From IMG/VR virus record IMGVR_UViG_3300025120_000393, positions 1 through 28,463 of that record: 28,463 nt of DNA; one strand, written 5' to 3'. The DNA is from a virus. A program made the translations under genes and the position numbers. Below the pieces are notes generated by a model. It had not been told where the DNA came from. It ran no database searches and worked only from the letters and a program-made list of their open reading frames with translations. Each line of letters opens with the position of its first letter. The first letter of the stretch is position 1. Below are positions 6,135-16,724 of this stretch, piece after piece.

Positions 6135-6142
6135 AATAAATA
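6135..6142 (+). promoter_or_regulatory. Late promoter before gp26
   Basis: AATAAATA lies 27 nt before the gp26 ATG (6170), in the gap after gp54. It matches the ATAAATA core of T4-like late promoters and has almost the same spacing as the elements before gp4, the spike gene and the 1987-aa gene. Confidence 0.55.
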
Positions 6143-6169: not shown

Positions 6170-6889
6170 ATGCCTTTACCAAAAATTGTAGCTCCAACAT
6201 ATGAACTTGAGTTGCCATCCACTGGAGAAACGATTAAATTTAGACCGTTTCTTGTAAAAGAAGAAAAACTTCTTGTCATTGCTTTAGAGAGTGAGGATAC
6301 AAAACAAATTACGACTGCTATCAAAGCAGTTATTAAGAGTTGTGTCTTAACAAAACAAGTTAAGGTTGAGCATTTGCCAACCTTTGATATTGAATATCTT
6401 TTTCTAAACATCCGTGGCAAGTCTGTTGGTGAGCAATTGGATGTTAATATTGTTTGTCCTGACGATGGATCTACAGAAGTTTCTATTCAAATTGATTTGG
6501 AAGATATCAAAGTCAGTAAAAATGACGAACATACAAACCAAATCAAACTTAATAATGACCTTATGTTAGAAATGAATTATCCTTCACTGGATCAGTTCAT
6601 TAAAAATAACTTTAACTTTAGTGAAAAAAATGCTATGGATCAATCATTTGATCTTGTCGCATCTTGTATGGGTAAAATTTACAATCAAGAAGAGGTTTGG
6701 GCAGCTGATGATTGTAGTAAAAAAGAACTGACTGATTTTTTGGATCAAATGAATTCTGCTCAATTTAAAGAAATTGAAAAGTTTTTTGAAACGATGCCAA
6801 AACTTTCTCATAATGTTGCAGTTAAGAATCCATCTACAGGAGTTGAAAGTGAAGTTGTATTGGAGGGCTTAGCAAGTTTTTTCGCCTAG
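6170..6889 (+). CDS. 26: gp26 baseplate hub/assembly protein
   Basis: 239 residues, a little longer than T4 gp26 (208). The N-terminal blocks LPSTGETIKFRPFLVKEEKLL, with LIALES-type and AIKAVIKSCV helices following, are the pattern I know from the T4 baseplate hub gp26 family. The C-terminal half is helical and ends in EGLASFFA. gp26 is needed for hub assembly together with gp51. The last sense codons are TTT TTC GCC before the TAG at 6887-6889. They form a T TTT TTC slippery heptamer, and a -1 slip would extend the protein by 63 residues through the gp51-like frame to give about 301 residues. This echoes the frameshifted tail-assembly chaperones of other tailed phages such as lambda gpG/gpGT. 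A late promoter lies 27 nt upstream. Confidence 0.75.
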   Translation: MPLPKIVAPTYELELPSTGETIKFRPFLVKEEKLLVIALESEDTKQITTAIKAVIKSCVLTKQVKVEHLPTFDIEYLFLNIRGKSVGEQLDVNIVCPDDGSTEVSIQIDLEDIKVSKNDEHTNQIKLNNDLMLEMNYPSLDQFIKNNFNFSEKNAMDQSFDLVASCMGKIYNQEEVWAADDCSKKELTDFLDQMNSAQFKEIEKFFETMPKLSHNVAVKNPSTGVESEVVLEGLASFFA

Positions 6890-6911
6890 CCCTGATCCAC
6901 ATGGATTTGGG
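6877..6911 (+). promoter_or_regulatory. Probable programmed -1 ribosomal frameshift site (gp26 to gp51)
   Basis: The heptamer T TTT TTC (6877-6883) lies in the correct X XXY YYZ phase for the gp26 frame, one codon before its stop. Six nt further on, a hairpin can form: CCC (6890-6892) with GGG (6909-6911), a U.U mismatch and G.U wobble, then ATCC (6895-6898) with GGAT (6903-6906) and loop ACAT. The -1 frame is open and enters the gp51-like ORF in phase at its ATG (6901). Confidence 0.65.
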
Positions 6912-7074
6912 TAGTTATTATAAAATCAATTTTGCCTTGATGCAATTTCATAAATATAGTTTAACTGAGATTGAAAATCTAATTCCATGGGAAAGAGATA
7001 TCTACGTTGGATTATTGCAGCAACATCTTGAAGAAGAAGAATTAAAACGAAAACAACAAGCATCTAATGGATGA
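6901..7074 (+). CDS. 51: gp51-like baseplate hub assembly protein (small ORF, likely frameshift extension of gp26)
   Basis: 57 residues from ATG 6901, or 63 residues as a -1 extension of gp26 entering at CGC 6883. The sequence DLGSYYKINFALMQFHKYS followed by LTEIENLIPWERDIYVGLLQ matches the short gp51 of cyanophages and has the helical, WxRD-Y pattern common in frameshift domains of tail-assembly chaperones. T4 gp51 is far larger (249), so only a local functional equivalence is claimed. No ribosome binding site is visible before ATG 6901, which favours expression through the frameshift site at 6877-6883. The C terminus is charged (EEEELKRKQQ), and its last 8 nt overlap the start of the next gene at 7067. 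Confidence 0.6.
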   Translation: MDLGSYYKINFALMQFHKYSLTEIENLIPWERDIYVGLLQQHLEEEELKRKQQASNG

Positions 7075-9244
7075 TACTGTAACTACACCAATAAAATCTA
7101 CTACAATATCAACATCTAAAATGATGGGTAGGGATGTTGGTGATACAAATTCTTCCTCACCTGGAAAAGAAAGCAAGATTGCTAAACTTTCAAGAATTTT
7201 AAGGACGACTCGTGTAAAGGTAAATGAGACAGAGAATCAAATAAAAGATATTGACAAGATAGTAAAAATAAATGCTGAAAAAATAACTAGATTAAAAAAT
7301 ATTATTAAGATTCAAAAGAGTACTCTTGCAGAAAATCTTAGTAGTCTCGATCAAAAAGCAGAATTTGCTTCGGTAGAAAAAAGTCTTAATGCTATAATTG
7401 AAACTTTAAGAAAAGAAAAAAAAGCAGAAGATAAAGCTGCAGAAGATGCTAGGAAAAAAGGAGAAAGGAATCGCGCCAAGAATAGAGAAAAGAAGTTAGA
7501 GTCTAGTCTTGGAAAGGGAATTAAACAATTCACTGGAAAAATAATAAAACCTTTCAAAAGTATTTTTGATAAAATATTTGATTTTTTACTCAATGTTTTA
7601 TTGGGAAGAACTGTCATAAAACTAATTGATTGGTTTAGTGATGATGAAAATAAAGAAAAAATAGATAACTTAATTAACTTTGTGAAGGACTGGTGGCCTG
7701 CACTGACTGCTGCTGTTCTTTTATTTGGAACTGGTTTTGGTTCTTTAGCAGCAGGTATCGTAAGTATAGTAGCAGGATTTATTCCTAAAATGATAGGAGT
7801 GATTGCCAAATTGACGATGGTGATTGCAAAAAGTCCTATTGCTCTTCCAGTACTTGCTGCTGCAGCTGCAGGTATTGGGATTTATGGTATAGGGAAAATG
7901 TTAGGTAATGATAAGGTTGCTGAAAATGAAGGAAAGCGGCAGGAGATTACTCGAAAGGGATTGGAAGAGGCACCTAGCACTAAGGATATGAGTGCTGGAG
8001 ACAGAGAGGCACTAGTTCAGGGATCAAGGCAAAGAGATGCAGGTGGTAGCGGATCTCTTAACAATATGCCAAACCAATTTATCGATCCTTTAGGCATCAG
8101 AAATGATCCTACTGGCATGGGTGGAATGCGTGGAATGGGTGGTATGAATAGATTTAATGGTGGAGGAAAAGTACCTGGTAAAGGGCCAAATAAAGATACT
8201 GTTCCTGCGATGTTATCTCCTGGTGAATTTGTGATGAGTAGAGGTGCAGTTGATAAATTTGGTACTGGTATTTTGGCTTCTATGAACTCTATTGGTGGTG
8301 GAAATAATAAACCTAAAATTTCTGATGGAGTAACATATGCATCTGGTGGTGGGATGGTTGGTAATAATAATTATGGTTCGAATTTAAAATTTAAAAGCCC
8401 AATTATGGGATATCCAAATTATGAGAAACCTACTGACGAGGCAGGACAATTCTTCTCAAGAATTTACAAGGCAGCAAAAGAAGCAGGAGATCCATTCCCA
8501 GAAATAGTTGCAGCACAAGCTGTAGAAGAAAGTAATTTTGGAAGATCTCCATTAGCAATGGAAGCAAATAATTTATTTGGCCAAGACGCTCCATCAGATT
8601 ATCCACCATCTCAAACATATAAGTATATTGATCCTATTGAAGGAGAACATACAGCAATTAAATTTAAATCTATTGAAGACTCTGTAAAATATAGAGTTAG
8701 GATATGGAAAGAGTATTATGGAGATGCTAAAACTCCATCTGAGGCAATCACTAATCTTGCAACTGCTGGATATAATCCACATGCCATATATCCAGGAAAA
8801 ATTAATGGTGTTTTACGTGATTATGGTATCGTACCAAATCAACCAAGACCTAATATGAATGATGTTAGGCCTACAAACCAACCAACTTTTGCTAATAGAG
8901 TTGAAGATACTCCAGTTGGTCCAAAAGGTCTCATTCAATCGTTGACTGATTCAGAAGGATTGTCTGGCATTTATATGAATCCGATTAACAAAATATTTGG
9001 CAATCAATCTAAAACCCAACCAAATTTACAAACTCCTGCACAAATATCAAGTTCTCAAACAAAAAAAACTTCTAACATAAAACCTTTGGAAAGAAGTGCT
9101 CCAAAGGTTTCGTTCTTACCATTACCAACATCAAATGACGATACACCTATCGCAGATGCATCTGGTAGAACAACTATTCCTCCGTTCAGTGCAGCGACTC
9201 AGGGATCTCGTTTTAAGAAACAAGTTCTTGGTATGGTGACATAA
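7067..9244 (+). CDS. Tape-measure-like hub protein with glucosaminidase-like domain
   Basis: 725 residues. Residues about 35-160 are Lys/Glu-rich and predicted coiled coil. Residues about 160-280 hold several hydrophobic segments (FDFLLNVLLGRTVIKLIDWF, WWPALTAAVLLFGTG, and an Ala/Gly-rich stretch), as in tape-measure proteins. A Gly/Met/Asn-rich linker leads to GKVPGKGPNKDTVPAMLSPG near 365, a motif frequent in phage tape-measure proteins. Residues about 455-600 look like a FlgJ/AtlA-type glucosaminidase: FFSRIYKAAKEAG, AAQAVEESNFGRS with probable catalytic E488, NNLFG, and SVKYRVRIWKEYYG. The protein would measure or line the tail and cut peptidoglycan during entry. It overlaps gp51 by 8 nt and is followed after 1 nt by the 783-aa gene. 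T4 gp29 is the positional analogue, without convincing sequence similarity that I can see. Confidence 0.65.
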   Translation: MDDTVTTPIKSTTISTSKMMGRDVGDTNSSSPGKESKIAKLSRILRTTRVKVNETENQIKDIDKIVKINAEKITRLKNIIKIQKSTLAENLSSLDQKAEFASVEKSLNAIIETLRKEKKAEDKAAEDARKKGERNRAKNREKKLESSLGKGIKQFTGKIIKPFKSIFDKIFDFLLNVLLGRTVIKLIDWFSDDENKEKIDNLINFVKDWWPALTAAVLLFGTGFGSLAAGIVSIVAGFIPKMIGVIAKLTMVIAKSPIALPVLAAAAAGIGIYGIGKMLGNDKVAENEGKRQEITRKGLEEAPSTKDMSAGDREALVQGSRQRDAGGSGSLNNMPNQFIDPLGIRNDPTGMGGMRGMGGMNRFNGGGKVPGKGPNKDTVPAMLSPGEFVMSRGAVDKFGTGILASMNSIGGGNNKPKISDGVTYASGGGMVGNNNYGSNLKFKSPIMGYPNYEKPTDEAGQFFSRIYKAAKEAGDPFPEIVAAQAVEESNFGRSPLAMEANNLFGQDAPSDYPPSQTYKYIDPIEGEHTAIKFKSIEDSVKYRVRIWKEYYGDAKTPSEAITNLATAGYNPHAIYPGKINGVLRDYGIVPNQPRPNMNDVRPTNQPTFANRVEDTPVGPKGLIQSLTDSEGLSGIYMNPINKIFGNQSKTQPNLQTPAQISSSQTKKTSNIKPLERSAPKVSFLPLPTSNDDTPIADASGRTTIPPFSAATQGSRFKKQVLGMVT

Positions 9245-9245
9245 A

Positions 9246-11597
9246 ATGGCAGTTAACGCAGAAAAACTACTATCCAGAAAAGTGGAGACTCCAAATATAT
9301 CTTCTCCAAAGGGGTCAAAATTTAGATTAAAATCAATTAAGATAAAGGTTGATACTATAAATGATATTTTAAAACAATCTTTAAAATCTAAAACGAAAGC
9401 AAGAAGTTCTGATAGATCAAAGGATGAGAAAGAAACTTCAACAAAAACAGAGAATGAATTAGAGAAACAACAAAAGAAGTTTGGTAAGTTTAAGTTGCCA
9501 AACCCAATTAAAAAATTGAACCCTCTGAATAAGATAACAAATTTTCTATTTAATATTCTTGCTGGGTATGTTGCAGTAAGATTGTTAGACAATTTGCCAA
9601 TGTTGAAGGAATTAATTCCTAAAATAGAGAGTGCCTTTGAGTTTATTGAAGAATGGGGAGGTAAAATTTTCAATGGACTTGTCACTCTGGTAGACGAGGG
9701 ATATAAAATGTATGATGGTTTACGTGATAATGTCAAAGAAATGTTTGGCGAAGATGGCCAGAAAAAATTTGATGAAATATCTAATCACTTAAAGACAGCT
9801 CTTAATTTAGCAATCGTTGCTGCTTTGATTGGAGTGAGAGTTGGAGCTTTTCGTGGTGGAGGAGCAAGAACGGGTGCAAATATAAGACCTAGACCAGGCA
9901 CAGGTGGAAGACCTAGAGTAACCGGTACTGGTGGTGGTAGAGCAGGTAGACCAAATTTACGCAACCCACTCAGACAGAGACCAAGAATAACCTCTGGTGG
10001 TGGTGCAAATAGATTCGGTAGTAGACTGCTTGGTAGAGGTGCTTCAAGAGTTACTATTGGTGCTTCAGGTCAACTTGGATCAAGAGCAGGTTTAAGAATT
10101 CTCAAAAACTTTGTCAGTCCAATTGTTAAAAGAATACCAATCATTGGTGGTCTAATTGACTTTGCACTAAACTACTTTGTTTTTAAAGAACCTATCGGAA
10201 GAGCAGCATTTGCGGCAATTGGTGCTACAATTTTTGGTGCTCTTGGAGCAACAGTCGGATCTATTGTTCCATTTGGAGGAACTTTTATTGGTGGTGTTCT
10301 TGGTGGTCTTGGCGGAGATCTTGCCGGTAAATGGTTATATGATGCATTCTTCTCTAAAAAGAAACCAATAAAAGTTCAAGATGATTCTGAATTAAAAGAC
10401 AAACTACCTAGATCTGAAATAACATCAGCAGATGAAAAAGATCTCTTTAAAAGATTGATTGCTGCTGAGTCAAGTGGGGAAGGTGAACTTGGAATGGCAT
10501 TGGTTGCTCGTTCTGTATTAAATCGTGTTGGTTTAATACAATCTGGTGAAGCTTCAACTGGAACTTTCCAGGCTAATGATAAGACTTTGACTGGTGTTAT
10601 TATGGGAAAAAATCAATACCAACCAGTAACTGATGGAAGCATTAATGATAAATTTGAACCCAGGACATTAGAAAAATCTGAGAATGCAATAAAACTTGCT
10701 CAAGATATTGATAAGTTGAAGGCAATGTTAAAAACTGAAAAAATAAGTGACTCTGATATTTCCAAACTTATGGCATCAACTGGATTCAGAACAGGGGGTG
10801 CCTTTGTTGACCAATCGCAAAATGTCAATGTTGTTCAATACAAAAATCATTATTTTAATACTGCAGGAAATCCAACTCTATCTTATGCTAGAGCAAATAG
10901 ACCAAGTATACCAAAAAATGATATTGATGATGGTCAGCGAGCACTTAGGTCTTCTAGAATTGATAGTGAAGGAAGTAAAATTGCAGGTGAACTTGGAAGA
11001 TTTATGAAAAAGAAAGGAGTAGTTCCTGGAAGTATTCACCGACACCCGGAGCATCCTCCATATAGTTTAACGCAAGGTCACTCTCCTGGTTCACTTCACT
11101 ATCAAGGAAGAGCAATTGATTTAGGAGGGTACTCTGGTGAGCAGAGGCCTATTTTAGATGCTGTTACGGAGTTTAATAAGTTAAAGGGAATATCACCAGT
11201 ACAACTTCTTCATGCAGCTAATGATCCGAGAGGTGAACATGATGATCATGTTCATGTGGCATATAAAAAAGGTGGACTTACAAAGAGTGGTGCCCATATG
11301 GCAACACTGGGTGAGGAAGGGAGAGAATTTGTTATTGATGCAGATTCAACCAATGCACTTGAAGGAAAATTGCCTGGATTCTTAAGTGCAATTAATAAAG
11401 CAGATGGAAAGGCTGCTATTGACATATTAAATGAATATACATCCTATGATGATAGGTCAGAACAAACAATTATAATTCCTCCGCCTCCACAACAAGCAGG
11501 ATATGGTGGTGATTCAACTAAAAAAGCAGTCCCTGTTCTAATTTCTGATTCGGAAATTCTTTCTAGTCATTTTGATATTTTATATCAAGGTGCGTAA
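9246..11597 (+). CDS. Tape-measure-like hub protein with SleB-like hydrolase and M15-like peptidase domains
   Basis: 783 residues. After a charged N terminus, hydrophobic segments occur near 95-120, 180-200 and 292-365 (Gly/Ala-rich, FGALGATVGSIVPFGGTFIG), separated by an Arg/Gly-rich stretch (about 200-275). Residues about 396-490 resemble SleB/Hydrolase_2 cell-wall hydrolases: LFKRLIAAESSGEGELGMAL with candidate E408, VARSVLNR, GVI and NQYQPV. Residues about 580-680 resemble M15-type D,D-peptidases: GSLHYQGRAIDLG gives the H618 and D625 ligands, and HDDHVHVAY gives H668/H670. The C-terminal GEEGREFVIDADS motif is common in tape-measure proteins. Two wall-cleaving activities of different bond types are therefore predicted. 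It sits between the glucosaminidase-like gene and gp27 in one plus-strand run. Confidence 0.65.
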   Translation: MAVNAEKLLSRKVETPNISSPKGSKFRLKSIKIKVDTINDILKQSLKSKTKARSSDRSKDEKETSTKTENELEKQQKKFGKFKLPNPIKKLNPLNKITNFLFNILAGYVAVRLLDNLPMLKELIPKIESAFEFIEEWGGKIFNGLVTLVDEGYKMYDGLRDNVKEMFGEDGQKKFDEISNHLKTALNLAIVAALIGVRVGAFRGGGARTGANIRPRPGTGGRPRVTGTGGGRAGRPNLRNPLRQRPRITSGGGANRFGSRLLGRGASRVTIGASGQLGSRAGLRILKNFVSPIVKRIPIIGGLIDFALNYFVFKEPIGRAAFAAIGATIFGALGATVGSIVPFGGTFIGGVLGGLGGDLAGKWLYDAFFSKKKPIKVQDDSELKDKLPRSEITSADEKDLFKRLIAAESSGEGELGMALVARSVLNRVGLIQSGEASTGTFQANDKTLTGVIMGKNQYQPVTDGSINDKFEPRTLEKSENAIKLAQDIDKLKAMLKTEKISDSDISKLMASTGFRTGGAFVDQSQNVNVVQYKNHYFNTAGNPTLSYARANRPSIPKNDIDDGQRALRSSRIDSEGSKIAGELGRFMKKKGVVPGSIHRHPEHPPYSLTQGHSPGSLHYQGRAIDLGGYSGEQRPILDAVTEFNKLKGISPVQLLHAANDPRGEHDDHVHVAYKKGGLTKSGAHMATLGEEGREFVIDADSTNALEGKLPGFLSAINKADGKAAIDILNEYTSYDDRSEQTIIIPPPPQQAGYGGDSTKKAVPVLISDSEILSSHFDILYQGA

Positions 11598-11620
11598 ATA
11601 GATATAAGAGGTAATAAAGA

Positions 11621-12937
11621 ATGGAAAAAACATCCACATCTAAACAAGCAGTTTCTGCTTCAGTATCAAAGGCAATTATAACTTCCAATAAGGATAAAAG
11701 CAAAACCACTAATTTGATTAATGGTTTAGTTCGTTTGATGTATTATGAAAGTATCTTACAAGATACCATAAGATCTGAAGTATATTTTATTGACACAGGT
11801 AATTCTATTGATGGAAAAAGTGTATTGGAAGGTCTTCCTATAGTAGGCACAGAAGATGCTGAATTGAAATTCACTGATAATAATCAGGTGACTATTAAGA
11901 TGAAATTAATTGTAAACAAAGTCACCCCTGTAAATGAAGAATCTACAGGATCTATGATAAGATTGGATCTAGTATCTGAAGAATTTATAAGAAATGAATG
12001 TGGAGATACAAGACTCAATATTAGATTTGATGGTAAGATATCAAATCATATTCAAAGAATTTTGACAGATTTTTTAAAGACTGAAAAATCTTTAGATATA
12101 GAACAGACAAGTAATAATTATAATTTTTTAGGAAATAATAGAAAACCATATTATGCAATGAATTGGTTATCCAAAGCATCTATACCAGCAAGTGTAGGAG
12201 AGAAGGGTAAGACTAGTGGATTCTTTTTGTTTGAAACTTCTGAGGGTTTTAAATTCAAATCAATAGATAGTTTATTTAAACAAAAGCAGAAAAAATCTTT
12301 GATCTTTAACCTAACTGCAGATTTACCTTCTGGGTATACTACAAAAGTTTTAAATCAGCAAAAAGATATTCGCATTGATGCTCAAGAAAAATTTAAAATG
12401 GGAGCATATGGAACAAGACTAGTAGTTTTTGATCCATTCAATTGTTTTTATGAAGTTAGGGAACAAACTGCAACTGAAACAAAAGATGGTACTGAATTAG
12501 CTGCAAAAGATTTGCCAAAGTTGAATGATAAATTTGAATCAGATTCAAAATTTACAAGGACAACATATTCAATTGTGGACACTGGAACACTTCCTTCTGG
12601 AACAACGGATCAACAAATTCAAAAATCAACAGAACAAAATTTTGAAGTACAGCAGGTATTGAATCAATCTATTCGTAGATATAATCAATTGTTTACGGGA
12701 ATGCAAACAGTGACGATCCCCGGAGACTTTAGCCTCCATGCTGGAGACCTTGTTTTTCTTGATACTCCAGGATTGCGTGCCAAGAAAGGTGATGATCTTG
12801 ACAAGGAATCAGGAGGTCTATATATTATAGCTGACTTATGTCATTTCATTTCTACCAATGAAACTTATACTAAGTTAAATCTGGTTAGAGATTCTTTCGG
12901 GAGAAAAGGAAACCACACTACTAATATTCCATTATGA
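11621..12937 (+). CDS. 27: gp27 baseplate central hub protein
   Basis: 438 residues (T4 gp27 has 391). Recognisable features are the N-terminal LVRLMYYESILQDTIRSEVY, the EGLPIVGTEDAELKF block, FDGKISNHIQRIL, and the C-terminal VTIPGDFSLHAGDLVFLDTP, typical of hub proteins that form the trimeric ring around the gp5 spike. The start ATG has an AGAGG about 8 nt upstream. The final TGA is in an ATGA overlap with the CP12-like gene, which is followed by gp5, the physical partner of gp27. In the T4 baseplate the gp27 trimer bridges the sixfold tube and the threefold spike. Confidence 0.8.
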   Translation: MEKTSTSKQAVSASVSKAIITSNKDKSKTTNLINGLVRLMYYESILQDTIRSEVYFIDTGNSIDGKSVLEGLPIVGTEDAELKFTDNNQVTIKMKLIVNKVTPVNEESTGSMIRLDLVSEEFIRNECGDTRLNIRFDGKISNHIQRILTDFLKTEKSLDIEQTSNNYNFLGNNRKPYYAMNWLSKASIPASVGEKGKTSGFFLFETSEGFKFKSIDSLFKQKQKKSLIFNLTADLPSGYTTKVLNQQKDIRIDAQEKFKMGAYGTRLVVFDPFNCFYEVREQTATETKDGTELAAKDLPKLNDKFESDSKFTRTTYSIVDTGTLPSGTTDQQIQKSTEQNFEVQQVLNQSIRRYNQLFTGMQTVTIPGDFSLHAGDLVFLDTPGLRAKKGDDLDKESGGLYIIADLCHFISTNETYTKLNLVRDSFGRKGNHTTNIPL

Positions 12938-13155
12938 GCGAAGAAAAAAGTATTAAACAACACATCATTGATGATAAAAACACACTTGATAATGAATCAT
13001 TGTCACCTCAAATGCGGCGTCATGTAGCGGATGAACTGGATCATCTTGAACAGTATCAAGCAAACCATCCTGGAGAAGATCATGATCCAACAGCACTTGA
13101 AATGTACTGTGATGAAAATCCAGAGACAGATGAGTGTAGAATTTATGAGGATTAA
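12934..13155 (+). CDS. CP12-like protein (C-terminal GAPDH-binding type)
   Basis: 73 residues. The C terminus ALEMYCDENPETDECRIYED has the features of CP12, the intrinsically disordered regulator that ties GAPDH and phosphoribulokinase into an inactive complex in the dark. The two Cys (C59, C68) have the 8-residue spacing of the CP12 C-terminal redox pair, followed by the characteristic R-I/V-Y-E/D-D end. The middle (RRHVADELDHLEQYQANH) aligns with the helix that carries AWDxVEEL in CP12, but the N-terminal Cys pair is absent. Phage CP12 genes are known from cyanophages as auxiliary metabolic genes. Here the gene is coupled to gp27 (ATGA overlap) and precedes gp5, so it would be expressed with late structural genes. 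A purely structural role cannot be excluded. Confidence 0.6.
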   Translation: MSEEKSIKQHIIDDKNTLDNESLSPQMRRHVADELDHLEQYQANHPGEDHDPTALEMYCDENPETDECRIYED

Positions 13156-13161
13156 TAATTA

Positions 13162-15531
13162 ATGGAAGGAGGAACACTTTTTAATCCAGGTTTTCTTGGG
13201 GGCAGTTTTCTTTGGTGGGTTGGTCAAATTAGTGATGACTCTACCTGGAGAGAAAACATAAGTTCTGCAAAGATAGAAAATAAAAATGATACCTCTGGAT
13301 GGGGATACCGATATAAAGTGAGAATCATTGGTCTTCACGATCAGAGTGAAGCATCAATTTCTTCTGACAAATTACCCTGGGCTCAAGTCATGTACCCTAT
13401 CACCGCAGGTGGTGGTCAGGGTGGATCTTTTCATACTCCAGCACTTAAGCAAGGTAATTTTGTTTTTGGATTTTTCCTTGATGCACAAGACCAACAAGTC
13501 CCGGTAATTATGGGTGTGTTGGGTAATAACTCAAAGACACAACTGAATACAAAAACTAGTTTATCTGGCGGAGAAAATTTTACTCCACAAAGTCATTTCT
13601 CTAAGACGCAGAAAAGAGATAGTACAAAAAGAGTTGCAGACAGCAACCTTTCAACTGAAAAACCATCAAAAGGATTTCCCACTAAGGAATCTGCAGATGC
13701 TACTCATTTAGAAAGTGCAAAGGATGAAAAAAAAGAAAAAGTTTTAAAAAGAAAACATACTCTGGCTTCCCCATGCCCAGAGAAAAACTCTGCTATGAAG
13801 TCAATCCAAACAATCATGGAGACTTTAAGCGAAAAAATACAAGAAATTCAAAAATCTCTACAAAACTATAAAGATGCAGCTGCACTTCCAATAAAGAATG
13901 CATTTAAAGAAATTGATAGAGTTATAGAAGAAGCAGCGACTGAGATTTCAAAGTTTATGAAAGAAATCTTTGCCAATGTTCAAAACTTTGTTACGGATCA
14001 ATTTAATAAAACACTTCAACCATTATTGAATATAGCCCCACCGAGTAGTAGAATTACTTTATTAGAAAACGCATTAAAGGGGTTTGAAGCATTATGTTGC
14101 ATATTTAATAAAATTGTAAATGGATTATTGGGAGATATTTTAGGTGCTATATTAAATAGTTTCAATAGAAAAAATTCAGCATCTCCTAATTCTGGGCCCA
14201 CTCCACAAACAAATTTAGATCCTTCACTTTCTCAACCAGGTGGAACACTACCCCTCTCAAGTCTCTCACAGGGGGGACAGGGTGGTTTAGGTGGTGCAGC
14301 AGGTCTTGGTGGTGCAGCAGGTCTTGGTGGTGCTGCAGGTCTTGGTGGTGCTGCAGGTCTTGGTGGAGTCGGAGCAGGTCTTGGTGGAGGTAGGGGAACA
14401 GGAATTTCATTACCAACAGATCCTCAAATTGGAACACCATCAGAGTTTGGAACTTCATATCAAATTCCATCATTACCACCAGATGGATTTTATACACCAA
14501 CACCCATATGTGATACTGAAGAACTGATTAGTGAAGTTTTAGGTCTACATCTAAACACTATCATGGAGTCTTTTGATGTTGCAGTTACTCCAGTCGTTTT
14601 TGCAAGTAGAGATTTTCTATCCACAGAGGGTTATTCTGGAACTGTATATGCAAAACAGATCTTAGATGCTAAACCAAAAAAAATTATTCGCAGATCTATT
14701 TCCCCAAGTGCCGTAAAATCTTCAATTGAATCTGGAGAATTAGTTAGGACGCTTGTTTCAATTCTATCAGGTCAACTTGGTGTAAATTTGACATCAAATC
14801 AACTTGATGGTATTGCATCTATTTTTAGACAAAATCCTGTCTCTGGAATTACTTCCCTTCTTGGATCCATTTCAGGAACGGATGGTGACTTTGACTTGAG
14901 ATCCACTTTACTTTCTCTTACTAATCTTGTTAATAATAATCCTTTGTTTTCAACTGACAAAACAACAGCATCCCTTATCAATGTTACTGTTGACTTATTG
15001 ACTGGTGGTGATTTAAAAAATGGTCTTGCATCAATTGCCAAACTTGCTGGAGCAGATCCTGCCGTTCTTTCATCTATTGGATCAACTTTCCAAGCTATAA
15101 AAGCAGGAAACATACTAGGTGTAGTACAATCATTGAGTCCTCTTGTTGGAGTCAGTCCAGAACTATTAAATTTAGTTACAGATTTTGTTGATGATCCCAT
15201 AGGTTCTGGGATTGGTCTTATAGATGACTTGGTTGGTGGATTAGGTGCTATTGGTGGATTTAACTTTGATGTTGGAACTGCACTAGGATTTATTTCATCC
15301 ATAACTGAATTATTCAGTTGTGATCCAAAACCAAAGTGTTCTCCAAACGATACATATACAATGCAAGAGGGTGGTAATGGTAAACCTGGAATTGAAAAAC
15401 CAAATTTAGCGGCAGTTGCTGAAGGTGCTATTGGCAAAGCGGCATCCGGGGGAAATTCTGGCGGCGTGCAATCACTAGAGGTAATTCCTTTTAGGCCACC
15501 AACATCACAACCAACACCAGTAGAAGAATAA
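13162..15531 (+). CDS. 5: gp5-like baseplate hub/spike protein without visible lysozyme domain
   Basis: 789 residues (T4 gp5: 575). The N terminus FNPGFLGGSFLWWVGQISDD followed by the OB-fold-like YRYKVRIIGLHD...LPWAQVMYP and QQVPVIMGVLGN corresponds to the gp5 OB domain that binds gp27. Next come a Lys-rich helical segment (about 160-330), a low-complexity GLGGAA repeat (about 375-405), a Cys-containing segment, and a long helical/Leu-Gly-rich C-terminal region with several DLLTGG/DDLVGG-like turns. I see no T4-lysozyme-like catalytic segment and no long GxxxI-type beta-helix here. A separate beta-helix protein is encoded at 16756-17301 and wall-cleaving domains occur in the two tape-measure-like proteins. 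The stop overlaps the next ATG by one base. Confidence 0.65.
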   Translation: MEGGTLFNPGFLGGSFLWWVGQISDDSTWRENISSAKIENKNDTSGWGYRYKVRIIGLHDQSEASISSDKLPWAQVMYPITAGGGQGGSFHTPALKQGNFVFGFFLDAQDQQVPVIMGVLGNNSKTQLNTKTSLSGGENFTPQSHFSKTQKRDSTKRVADSNLSTEKPSKGFPTKESADATHLESAKDEKKEKVLKRKHTLASPCPEKNSAMKSIQTIMETLSEKIQEIQKSLQNYKDAAALPIKNAFKEIDRVIEEAATEISKFMKEIFANVQNFVTDQFNKTLQPLLNIAPPSSRITLLENALKGFEALCCIFNKIVNGLLGDILGAILNSFNRKNSASPNSGPTPQTNLDPSLSQPGGTLPLSSLSQGGQGGLGGAAGLGGAAGLGGAAGLGGAAGLGGVGAGLGGGRGTGISLPTDPQIGTPSEFGTSYQIPSLPPDGFYTPTPICDTEELISEVLGLHLNTIMESFDVAVTPVVFASRDFLSTEGYSGTVYAKQILDAKPKKIIRRSISPSAVKSSIESGELVRTLVSILSGQLGVNLTSNQLDGIASIFRQNPVSGITSLLGSISGTDGDFDLRSTLLSLTNLVNNNPLFSTDKTTASLINVTVDLLTGGDLKNGLASIAKLAGADPAVLSSIGSTFQAIKAGNILGVVQSLSPLVGVSPELLNLVTDFVDDPIGSGIGLIDDLVGGLGAIGGFNFDVGTALGFISSITELFSCDPKPKCSPNDTYTMQEGGNGKPGIEKPNLAAVAEGAIGKAASGGNSGGVQSLEVIPFRPPTSQPTPVEE
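14284..14373 (+). repeat. Five tandem 18-bp repeats coding GLGGAA
   Basis: Unit GGTCTTGGTGGTGCWGCA; the first copy has TTTA for TCTT's equivalent and the fifth ends in GAGTCGGA. The three middle copies are nearly identical, differing only in GCA/GCT at one codon, which suggests recent slippage expansion. They encode a flexible Gly/Ala/Leu linker within the gp5-like protein. Confidence 0.9.
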
Positions 15532-16724
15532 TGCCATTCACATCAACATCAACAAATACTATTAAAGTAGGATATGTTAGTAAGTTTGAAGGATATATTA
15601 GTGGATTAACTATTCAAGAAGCGAATGATTATGAGAGTTTATCTGAAGGAACTACATTTATTTTTGTAGATGGAGATGGTGGAGTTAGATATCTCAGTAT
15701 TGATCAAGTCAATCAGTTAACCACAGATGATCTAAAAAGAAAAAAAGCATGTGATGTTGGCCCCAAATCATGCGGACCCCCAAACATAAATTTTTTTGGT
15801 GGAGGAGGAATTGGAGTAAAGGGAAACCCAATCATAGATCGTGATGGAAATATTTTAGCAGTAGATATTGTTGATGGTGGATATGGTTACACAAGTCCCC
15901 CTCAAATTAGAGCAGTTGACTTATGTAATAATGGAAGCGGTGCAGTTTTAGTTCCAGTATTAGATCCCACAGGAGTAATTACAAATGTTATAGTTGAGGA
16001 TAGTGGTTCAGGATATCTGCCATCAAGTGAAGGAGAACCTTCACCACAGTATCCAGTTTTAATAACACTGACTGATGTTATAGTCAAAAATCCCGGTCTA
16101 AATTATGATCCAAATGATACTATAATAATCAGTCCTAATAATGGAACTAATTTATCTTTTTCTCTAGATCCTTTTGGAAAAGTAAATTCAGTTAAAGTTA
16201 ATAGAGGTGGAAACTTTACATCACTTCCTGATATTTTCATGGATACTGACGCGGGAGTTAATGCACAATTCACTCCTGTGTTTGGAATTGTTCGTGATCC
16301 ACTGGTTCCTCAGATTGCTGACCCTGGAGAAATTGTTCAAGTTTATGATCTTATTGGACTTCAAATTAATGGTTATGTTGATGGTAAAGCATATTATGGT
16401 AATGTATTTTTTGATAACGGAATAAAATATGCAGGGGTTAGAAATACTGGGGTAATAGTTTATGAAACTCTGAAAGAAAGTATTACCAAAGATATTCAAC
16501 CAAAATCCCCTATTTCAACTGAAACAATAGACATAGATTATACAGAAACTGCTGATCAAACTGATACTAGTGCATCCACAGTAGTAAGATCTACTGGTAC
16601 ACGTCAAACTTCAGAACCAACAACTACACCTATAACCACAACTACAACGACGACATCAACATCAAGTGGATCTTCTTCAAGTAGCGGATCTTCAGGTGGA
16701 GGTGGAGGTGGTGGTGGTTACTAA
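15531..16724 (+). CDS. Virion structural protein with GxGY repeats and Thr/Ser/Gly-rich tail
   Basis: 397 residues, not assignable to a T4 gene. Residues 1-75 form a small domain (VGYVSKFEGYISGLTIQEAN). Then at least four beta-type repeats follow the plan [D/G-x-V/I-x-x-V-x-V/I-x-x-x-G-x-G/N-Y/F], for example AVDIVDGGYGYTSPPQIRAV, NVIVEDSGSGYLPSSE, DVIVKNPGLNYDPND and SVKVNRGGNFTSLPDIFMD. A further folded part (YDLIGLQINGYVDGKAYYG) precedes a C-terminal Thr/Ser-rich stretch and a poly-Gly end (about 345-397). Its position between gp5 and the beta-helix protein makes a hub/spike-associated role likely. The gene starts within the gp5 stop codon (TAATG). The same GxGY-type repeats occur in the 1987-aa protein. 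Confidence 0.6.
   Translation: MPFTSTSTNTIKVGYVSKFEGYISGLTIQEANDYESLSEGTTFIFVDGDGGVRYLSIDQVNQLTTDDLKRKKACDVGPKSCGPPNINFFGGGGIGVKGNPIIDRDGNILAVDIVDGGYGYTSPPQIRAVDLCNNGSGAVLVPVLDPTGVITNVIVEDSGSGYLPSSEGEPSPQYPVLITLTDVIVKNPGLNYDPNDTIIISPNNGTNLSFSLDPFGKVNSVKVNRGGNFTSLPDIFMDTDAGVNAQFTPVFGIVRDPLVPQIADPGEIVQVYDLIGLQINGYVDGKAYYGNVFFDNGIKYAGVRNTGVIVYETLKESITKDIQPKSPISTETIDIDYTETADQTDTSASTVVRSTGTRQTSEPTTTPITTTTTTTSTSSGSSSSSGSSGGGGGGGGY

Follow-up and report, generated by a model that had tools for sequence, protein, structure and literature searches.

The window, that is, the whole stretch of 28,463 nucleotides of viral DNA that was analysed, raises the question of why a short reading frame resembling a regulator of the Calvin cycle lies between genes of the phage baseplate hub, what its product would do there, and when during infection it would be made. 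The locus is laid out as follows:

11621-12937, + strand: upstream hub or tail protein, the positional "gp27" (PHROG 350, "tail protein", 8e-86)
12934-12937, + strand: ATGA overlap of the upstream stop codon TGA (12935-12937) with the cp12 start codon ATG (12934), read from the sequence
12934-13155, + strand: cp12, encoding a 73-amino-acid CP12 protein, a host-derived Calvin-cycle regulator (Pfam CP12, 2.2e-14; PDB profile match; dN/dS)
13162-15531, + strand: gp5, baseplate hub subunit and tail lysozyme (PF06714 Gp5_OB, 2e-06; PHROG 33098)
6170-16724, + strand: the tightly packed series of gp26, gp51, two large tail/lysis-type genes, "gp27", cp12, gp5 and one more gene (ORF coordinates and families)

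The genes from 6170 to 16724, co-directional and arranged head to tail, would form a single operon. The sequence-only reading had placed the frame before gp5 and in ATGA overlap with the gene upstream, and both are evident (12934-12937; gp5 start at 13162). Its description of the frame as coupled to the hub gene gp27 is upheld with respect to position and overlap, but not with respect to the name: a profile of the 11621-12937 family, which corresponds to T4-GC 15 in other cyanophages, matched neither the solved T4 gp27 nor anything else meaningfully in PDB, and the label "gp27" rests on position and annotation (PHROG 350, T4-GC 15). No Shine-Dalgarno sequence is evident at the start of cp12. 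At its other end (13145-13165), the last codons, GAG GAT TAA, hold a GAGG approximately 12 nucleotides before the gp5 start, which may serve as the ribosome-binding site of gp5 and link its translation to that of cp12.

The translation of the frame 12934-13155 (+ strand), MSEEKSIKQHIIDDKNTLDNESLSPQMRRHVADELDHLEQYQANHPGEDHDPTALEMYCDENPETDECRIYED, is matched by the Pfam CP12 profile PF02672 with 54.4 bits (E = 2.2e-14; gathering score 22.7), in an alignment that spans positions 3-70 of the 70 in the profile. The resemblance to CP12 that had been recognised from the letters is thereby confirmed, whereas the accompanying claim that only the GAPDH-binding half had been kept is contradicted by this coverage of the whole domain. 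In a profile search of PDB with the window protein, the top match was the Thermosynechococcus CP12 of the GAPDH-CP12-PRK structures (1.7e-28, with a profile that itself contains canonical cyanobacterial CP12), and the best matches are CP12 chains, among them the GAPDH-bound CP12 peptides 3zdf and 3b1j. Judged by these profiles, the frame encodes a genuine, full-length CP12-domain protein. It has T4-like neighbours, is present in single copy, and groups with phage rather than host CP12 in the tree described below; by sequence comparison it is the known cyanophage AMG cp12 (T4-GC 337), a phage gene of a known kind. All 12 phage records carry a CP12 match above the cut-off, 11 of them with a single match; Syn33 has a second, sub-threshold match within a frame of 579 amino acids. 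PHROG 627 and PHROG 2603, both of which are matched by the window CP12, are listed as being of "unknown function", although at least PHROG 627 clearly matches CP12.

Two parts of the protein bear on its binding partners:

13105-13152, + strand: C-terminal GAPDH-binding motif YCDENPETDECRIYED with the C59-C68 pair (invariant residues; match to 3zdf and 3b1j)
13024-13047, + strand: stretch aligned to the AWD_VEEL core, which reads VADELDHL (alignment)

Known CP12s bind GAPDH through a CxxxPxxxxC hairpin. The only cysteines of the window CP12, C59 and C68 (CxxxxxxxxC), lie within just such a pattern with a GAPDH-binding end (C59 DEN P63 ETDE C68, followed by RIYED), of which there were no occurrences in 200,000 shuffles of the protein. 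Across an alignment of 42 phage and cyanobacterial sequences, Y58, C59, D60, P63, E67, C68, R69 and Y71 are invariant, and outside the C-terminal hairpin only M1 and L38 are. The stretch aligned to the AWD_VEEL core retains Asp and Leu, having lost a Trp that is lost in the close cellular homologues too. Since dN/dS is approximately 0.03-0.07 in most of the cp12 pairs with estimable dS, and well below 1 pairwise, the protein is maintained by purifying selection. An independent contig (L051) encodes a CP12 99% identical to that of the window in an identical arrangement.

There is no cysteine ahead of C59, in agreement with the earlier statement that the N-terminal pair is missing, and the pair is absent from every phage CP12 relative extracted (L001-L095). 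The window CP12 falls outside the canonical N/C class, which has this pair. Cellular homologues were sought class-wide, among 388 genomes sampled from the class to which G001 belongs. The best matches also lack the N-terminal pair, come mostly from genomes of 1.6-3 Mb, and show the form MKSIDEHIQKDQ..., with the MKSIDEHI... start of the phage protein, whereas both N-terminal cysteines are present in 79 of 80 canonical CP12s from other cyanobacteria. A contig search with canonical CP12 as the query had no marine picocyanobacteria among its best 80 matches. From their small genomes and the published CP12-C(M) type, the close cellular homologues look like marine Synechococcus and Prochlorococcus; PMC3906501 treats CP12-C and CP12-C(M) as recognised classes without the N-terminal pair, and cites Stanley et al. 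(2013) for the CP12-C(M) class. Truncation or reduction by the phage was considered as the origin of the missing pair and rejected, because the closest cellular homologues lack it as well and the class is a published one; sharing this form with them, the phage CP12 probably inherited it from the host lineage.

The sequence-only reading had gone on to expect that such a protein would inhibit or titrate GAPDH without the full redox switch. In the corresponding alternative, CP12 deprived of the N-terminal disulfide would bind GAPDH only, neither recruiting PRK nor responding to redox state as full CP12 does, as the absent pair and the degenerate AWD_VEEL core could suggest; because of the latter, recruitment of PRK by the window CP12 is uncertain. 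Loss of the pair does not imply titration free of PRK, however, because the CP12s of S. elongatus PCC 7942 and Galdieria, which are without it, still form the GAPDH-CP12-PRK ternary complex (PMC9406205). The C-terminal pair, moreover, remains as a redox element, and the CP12 of the host itself is probably of the same form, so that a GAPDH-only titrator is considered unlikely.

The position of the gene is shared widely. In 73 of 76 environmental relatives a gp27-like gene is directly 5' of cp12, at a gap of -4 to +42 bases, and about half of these syntenic relatives (38/73) have exactly the four-base ATGA overlap; gp5 is next downstream in 71 of the 73, the other two being short at that end. 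Among isolate genomes, cp12 directly follows the hub gene in 13 of 18, separated from gp5 in some of them by cpeT, an oxygenase or tRNAs, and it is elsewhere in the remaining five: P-HM2 (beside talC), S-TIM5, S-SRM01, P-TIM68 and the divergent copy of P-SSM2. The order gp27-cp12-gp5, for which a check in other cyanophages had been proposed, is thus a common one. Cyanophage cp12 had been described as lying near psbA or near gp5 (Sullivan et al. 2010; PMC3037559), and a metabolic gene at the hub site, called unexpected by the sequence-only reading, is ordinary for these phages (isolate records; PMC3037559). In L064 and in P-TIM68 (L091), cp12 is directly before baseplate wedge genes (gp25/gp6-like), and in L064 it is just after a ferredoxin-family phage gene; two further loci resembling L064 (L065 and L068) have no hub genes near cp12.

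In a CP12 tree of 72 columns with uneven support, the phage sequences form one group apart from those of hosts (support 93/23; 92% of bootstrap trees). The positions away from the hub arise at least four times, from inside hub-linked branches, and the hub site therefore looks like the older position of cp12, which is an indication and not proof. Mean pairwise identity is 68% for CP12 versus 43% for the neighbouring hub protein, and in one pair (L052/L079) CP12 is 82% identical where the hub protein is 16% identical; so the host-derived regulator evolves at a slower pace than its structural neighbours. Recent swapping of cp12 between phages was also considered, in view of the much stronger conservation of CP12 relative to the hub gene. 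The synonymous sites of cp12 are mostly saturated (dS from 0.8 to above saturation), and stronger constraint therefore explains the conservation better in most pairs.

The lasting linkage of cp12 to gp27 and gp5 across widely differing phages, together with co-translation with the hub gene, might be taken to mean that CP12 has been repurposed as an assembly factor or chaperone of the gp27/gp5 hub and has lost its metabolic role. Such a role would leave unexplained that strict conservation falls on the GAPDH-binding hairpin, in residues common to cellular CP12, and that CP12 stays well conserved where identity of the hub gene falls to 16-29%; the tree also has at least four branches on which cp12 left the hub, and S-PM2 has no cp12 at all (PMC3037559). 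Repurposing of this kind is regarded as extremely improbable. A different structural role had been raised in the sequence-only reading: placed between hub genes and coupled to one of them through ATGA, CP12 might be a virion component, lodged among the hub proteins, that would enter the cell on infection and inhibit GAPDH without delay. There is precedent for enzymes in cyanophage virions (cytidylyl and NMN-adenylyl transferases, and kinases; PMC10665884), but the published virion proteomes argue otherwise. CP12 (SSZBM1_64) is absent from the 30 virion proteins of S-SZBM1, in which its hub neighbours SSZBM1_61 and SSZBM1_65 were found, despite having four tryptic peptides of suitable size; the S-SCSM1 record assigns gp5 and two neighbours to the virion but gives no such mark to CP12, nor to the gp27-like protein. 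A protein of 73 amino acids that is present in few copies is close to the limit of what such proteomes detect, and they argue against a virion role of the CP12 orthologues with moderate strength. In P-HM2, S-TIM5 and S-SRM01 the gene also occupies a site apart from the hub genes, and delivery with the virion is judged very improbable.

The time at which CP12 would be made depends on two candidate promoter sites:

6136-6142, + strand: late-promoter-like ATAAATA, 27 bp before the gp26 homologue (6170), the proposed hub-operon promoter
12798-12826, + strand: sigma-70-like TTGACA-N17-TATATT (11/12 matches), a possible internal promoter in the upstream gene

The late promoter of T4-like cyanophages is NATAAATA (PMC2984593). 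Six of the nine [AC]TAAATA sites in the window are within 40 bases before a gene start, where 0.2 would be expected; it is this placement that exceeds chance, the total count of the motif in the window being not above it. Upstream of cp12, the site at 6136-6142 is the only such motif shortly before a gene start; a second upstream copy (6950-6956) is inside gp51, and the next is at the end of the gene series (16724). In other cyanophage lineages, 11 of 16 loci (L080, L081, L083, L086-L090 and L093-L095) have a late motif approximately 20-35 nucleotides before cp12, against 0.11 expected. The window's set comprises 78 loci, which were retrieved through their resemblance to the window protein and so stand for its near relatives; in none of them is there a late motif just before cp12 (0.29 expected; 12890-12933 in the window). 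SynMITS9220M01, the isolate nearest to the window (76% CP12 identity), has no late motif ahead of cp12 either, whereas S-RSM4 and P-SSM4 each have one of their own. Because the nearest late motif before a gene is that at 6136-6142, the genes are packed, and the near relatives have no late motif of their own, the window cp12 is best read, from gene and promoter arrangement, as lying within the hub operon as an internal cistron whose translation is coupled by the ATGA overlap. This apparent lack of a promoter of its own, the gene riding instead on those of the baseplate hub, is its only uncommon feature.

For the window's clade, late expression linked to the hub, which had been claimed on the basis of position, is plausible in view of the motif at 6136-6142 and the lack of a motif just before cp12. 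That the CP12 of this clade is expressed only within the late hub operon, so that inhibition of the Calvin cycle would be timed to virion assembly and not to genome replication, is a tentative proposal with somewhat less than an even chance of being correct. In P-HM2, cp12 is a middle gene by measured timing (PMC5082946). There the gene, beside talC, has its own late motif overlapping a TTGACA, which fits both the idea that middle genes have early and late promoters and the measured timing. The window cp12, too, might be made early or in the middle period, independently of the hub operon, from the sigma-70-like site at 12798-12826. This site is 108 bp upstream of cp12, and its score of 11/12, reached in the window and a few relatives, is matched by approximately 0.6% of shuffled 200-bp stretches; the middle expression of P-HM2 cp12 would also be consistent with such a promoter. 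The best site in most of the clade, however, scores 8-9, as in shuffles, so that the element is not conserved, and the hub protein has a conserved stretch (GGLYII) that these bases encode. Expression from this site is accordingly rated as doubtful, and the hub-operon reading of cp12 is preferred.

In established CP12 biology, binding of GAPDH together with PRK lowers flux through the Calvin cycle. It is highly probable that the window gene is a phage-acquired AMG of this type, whose product would slow the Calvin cycle by docking to GAPDH in the cell and which would be translated as an internal hub-operon cistron without a late-type promoter of its own. T4-like cyanophages would have taken cp12 from a marine picocyanobacterium. 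Its product would most likely act inside the infected cell, where the oxidised C-terminal hairpin (C59-C68, ending in CRIYED) is predicted to dock on host GAPDH and would probably recruit PRK; the slowed Calvin cycle would then leave NADPH and carbon to the pentose phosphate pathway and nucleotides. Redox control, if any, would be through the C-terminal pair only, because the N-terminal region is of the marine picocyanobacterial type without the cysteine pair. Translated through the ATGA overlap as an internal cistron, CP12 would be made together and in step with the hub proteins. In the light, cp12 has one of the highest expression levels of all P-HM2 genes, and the NADPH/NADP+ ratio increases (PMC5082946); S-RSM4, which has cp12, stops CO2 fixation sooner than S-PM2, which does not (PMC10665884).

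For abundant marine phototrophs, phage CP12 is the proposed switch that stops CO2 fixation. Detailed data on expression were found for P-HM2, in which cp12 is beside talC with its own motif, whereas the hub-operon position is common and looks older. If the hub-linked copies are late, the usual model, in which CP12 frees NADPH for nucleotide synthesis at the time of replication, would misfit many cyanomyoviruses, and the promoter difference between cp12 genes would predict two schedules of Calvin-cycle inhibition.

In family, size, cysteine pattern and single copy, the window gene resembles the cyanophage cp12 of T4-GC 337 (for example, P-SSM4, Syn33, P-HM2, S-RSM4 and S-SCSM1), and like most of the sampled phages of this family, the window has it after the hub gene and before gp5. 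It differs from T4-GC 337 elsewhere in that the window and its near relatives are without the late motif carried by 11 of the 16 other phages, and in that about half of the near relatives overlap the upstream gene by ATGA. With marine picocyanobacterial CP12-C(M), a class of Stanley et al. (2013) as cited in PMC3906501, the window protein shares a start of the form MKSIDEHIxKD... without an N-terminal cysteine pair, at 41-51% identity, and the marine picocyanobacterial end, HDPT.LE.(Y/H)C..NP...CRVYDD, is of the same type; the picocyanobacterial CP12, unlike that of the window, is a cellular gene on its own branch of the tree. Canonical CP12 (Thermosynechococcus 6gfo and 6gve, Arabidopsis 3qv1) aligns with the window protein by profile over the whole length and has the same invariant C-terminal hairpin, but in cyanobacteria and plants alike it has, unlike the window protein, the N-terminal cysteine pair and an intact AWD_VEEL core.
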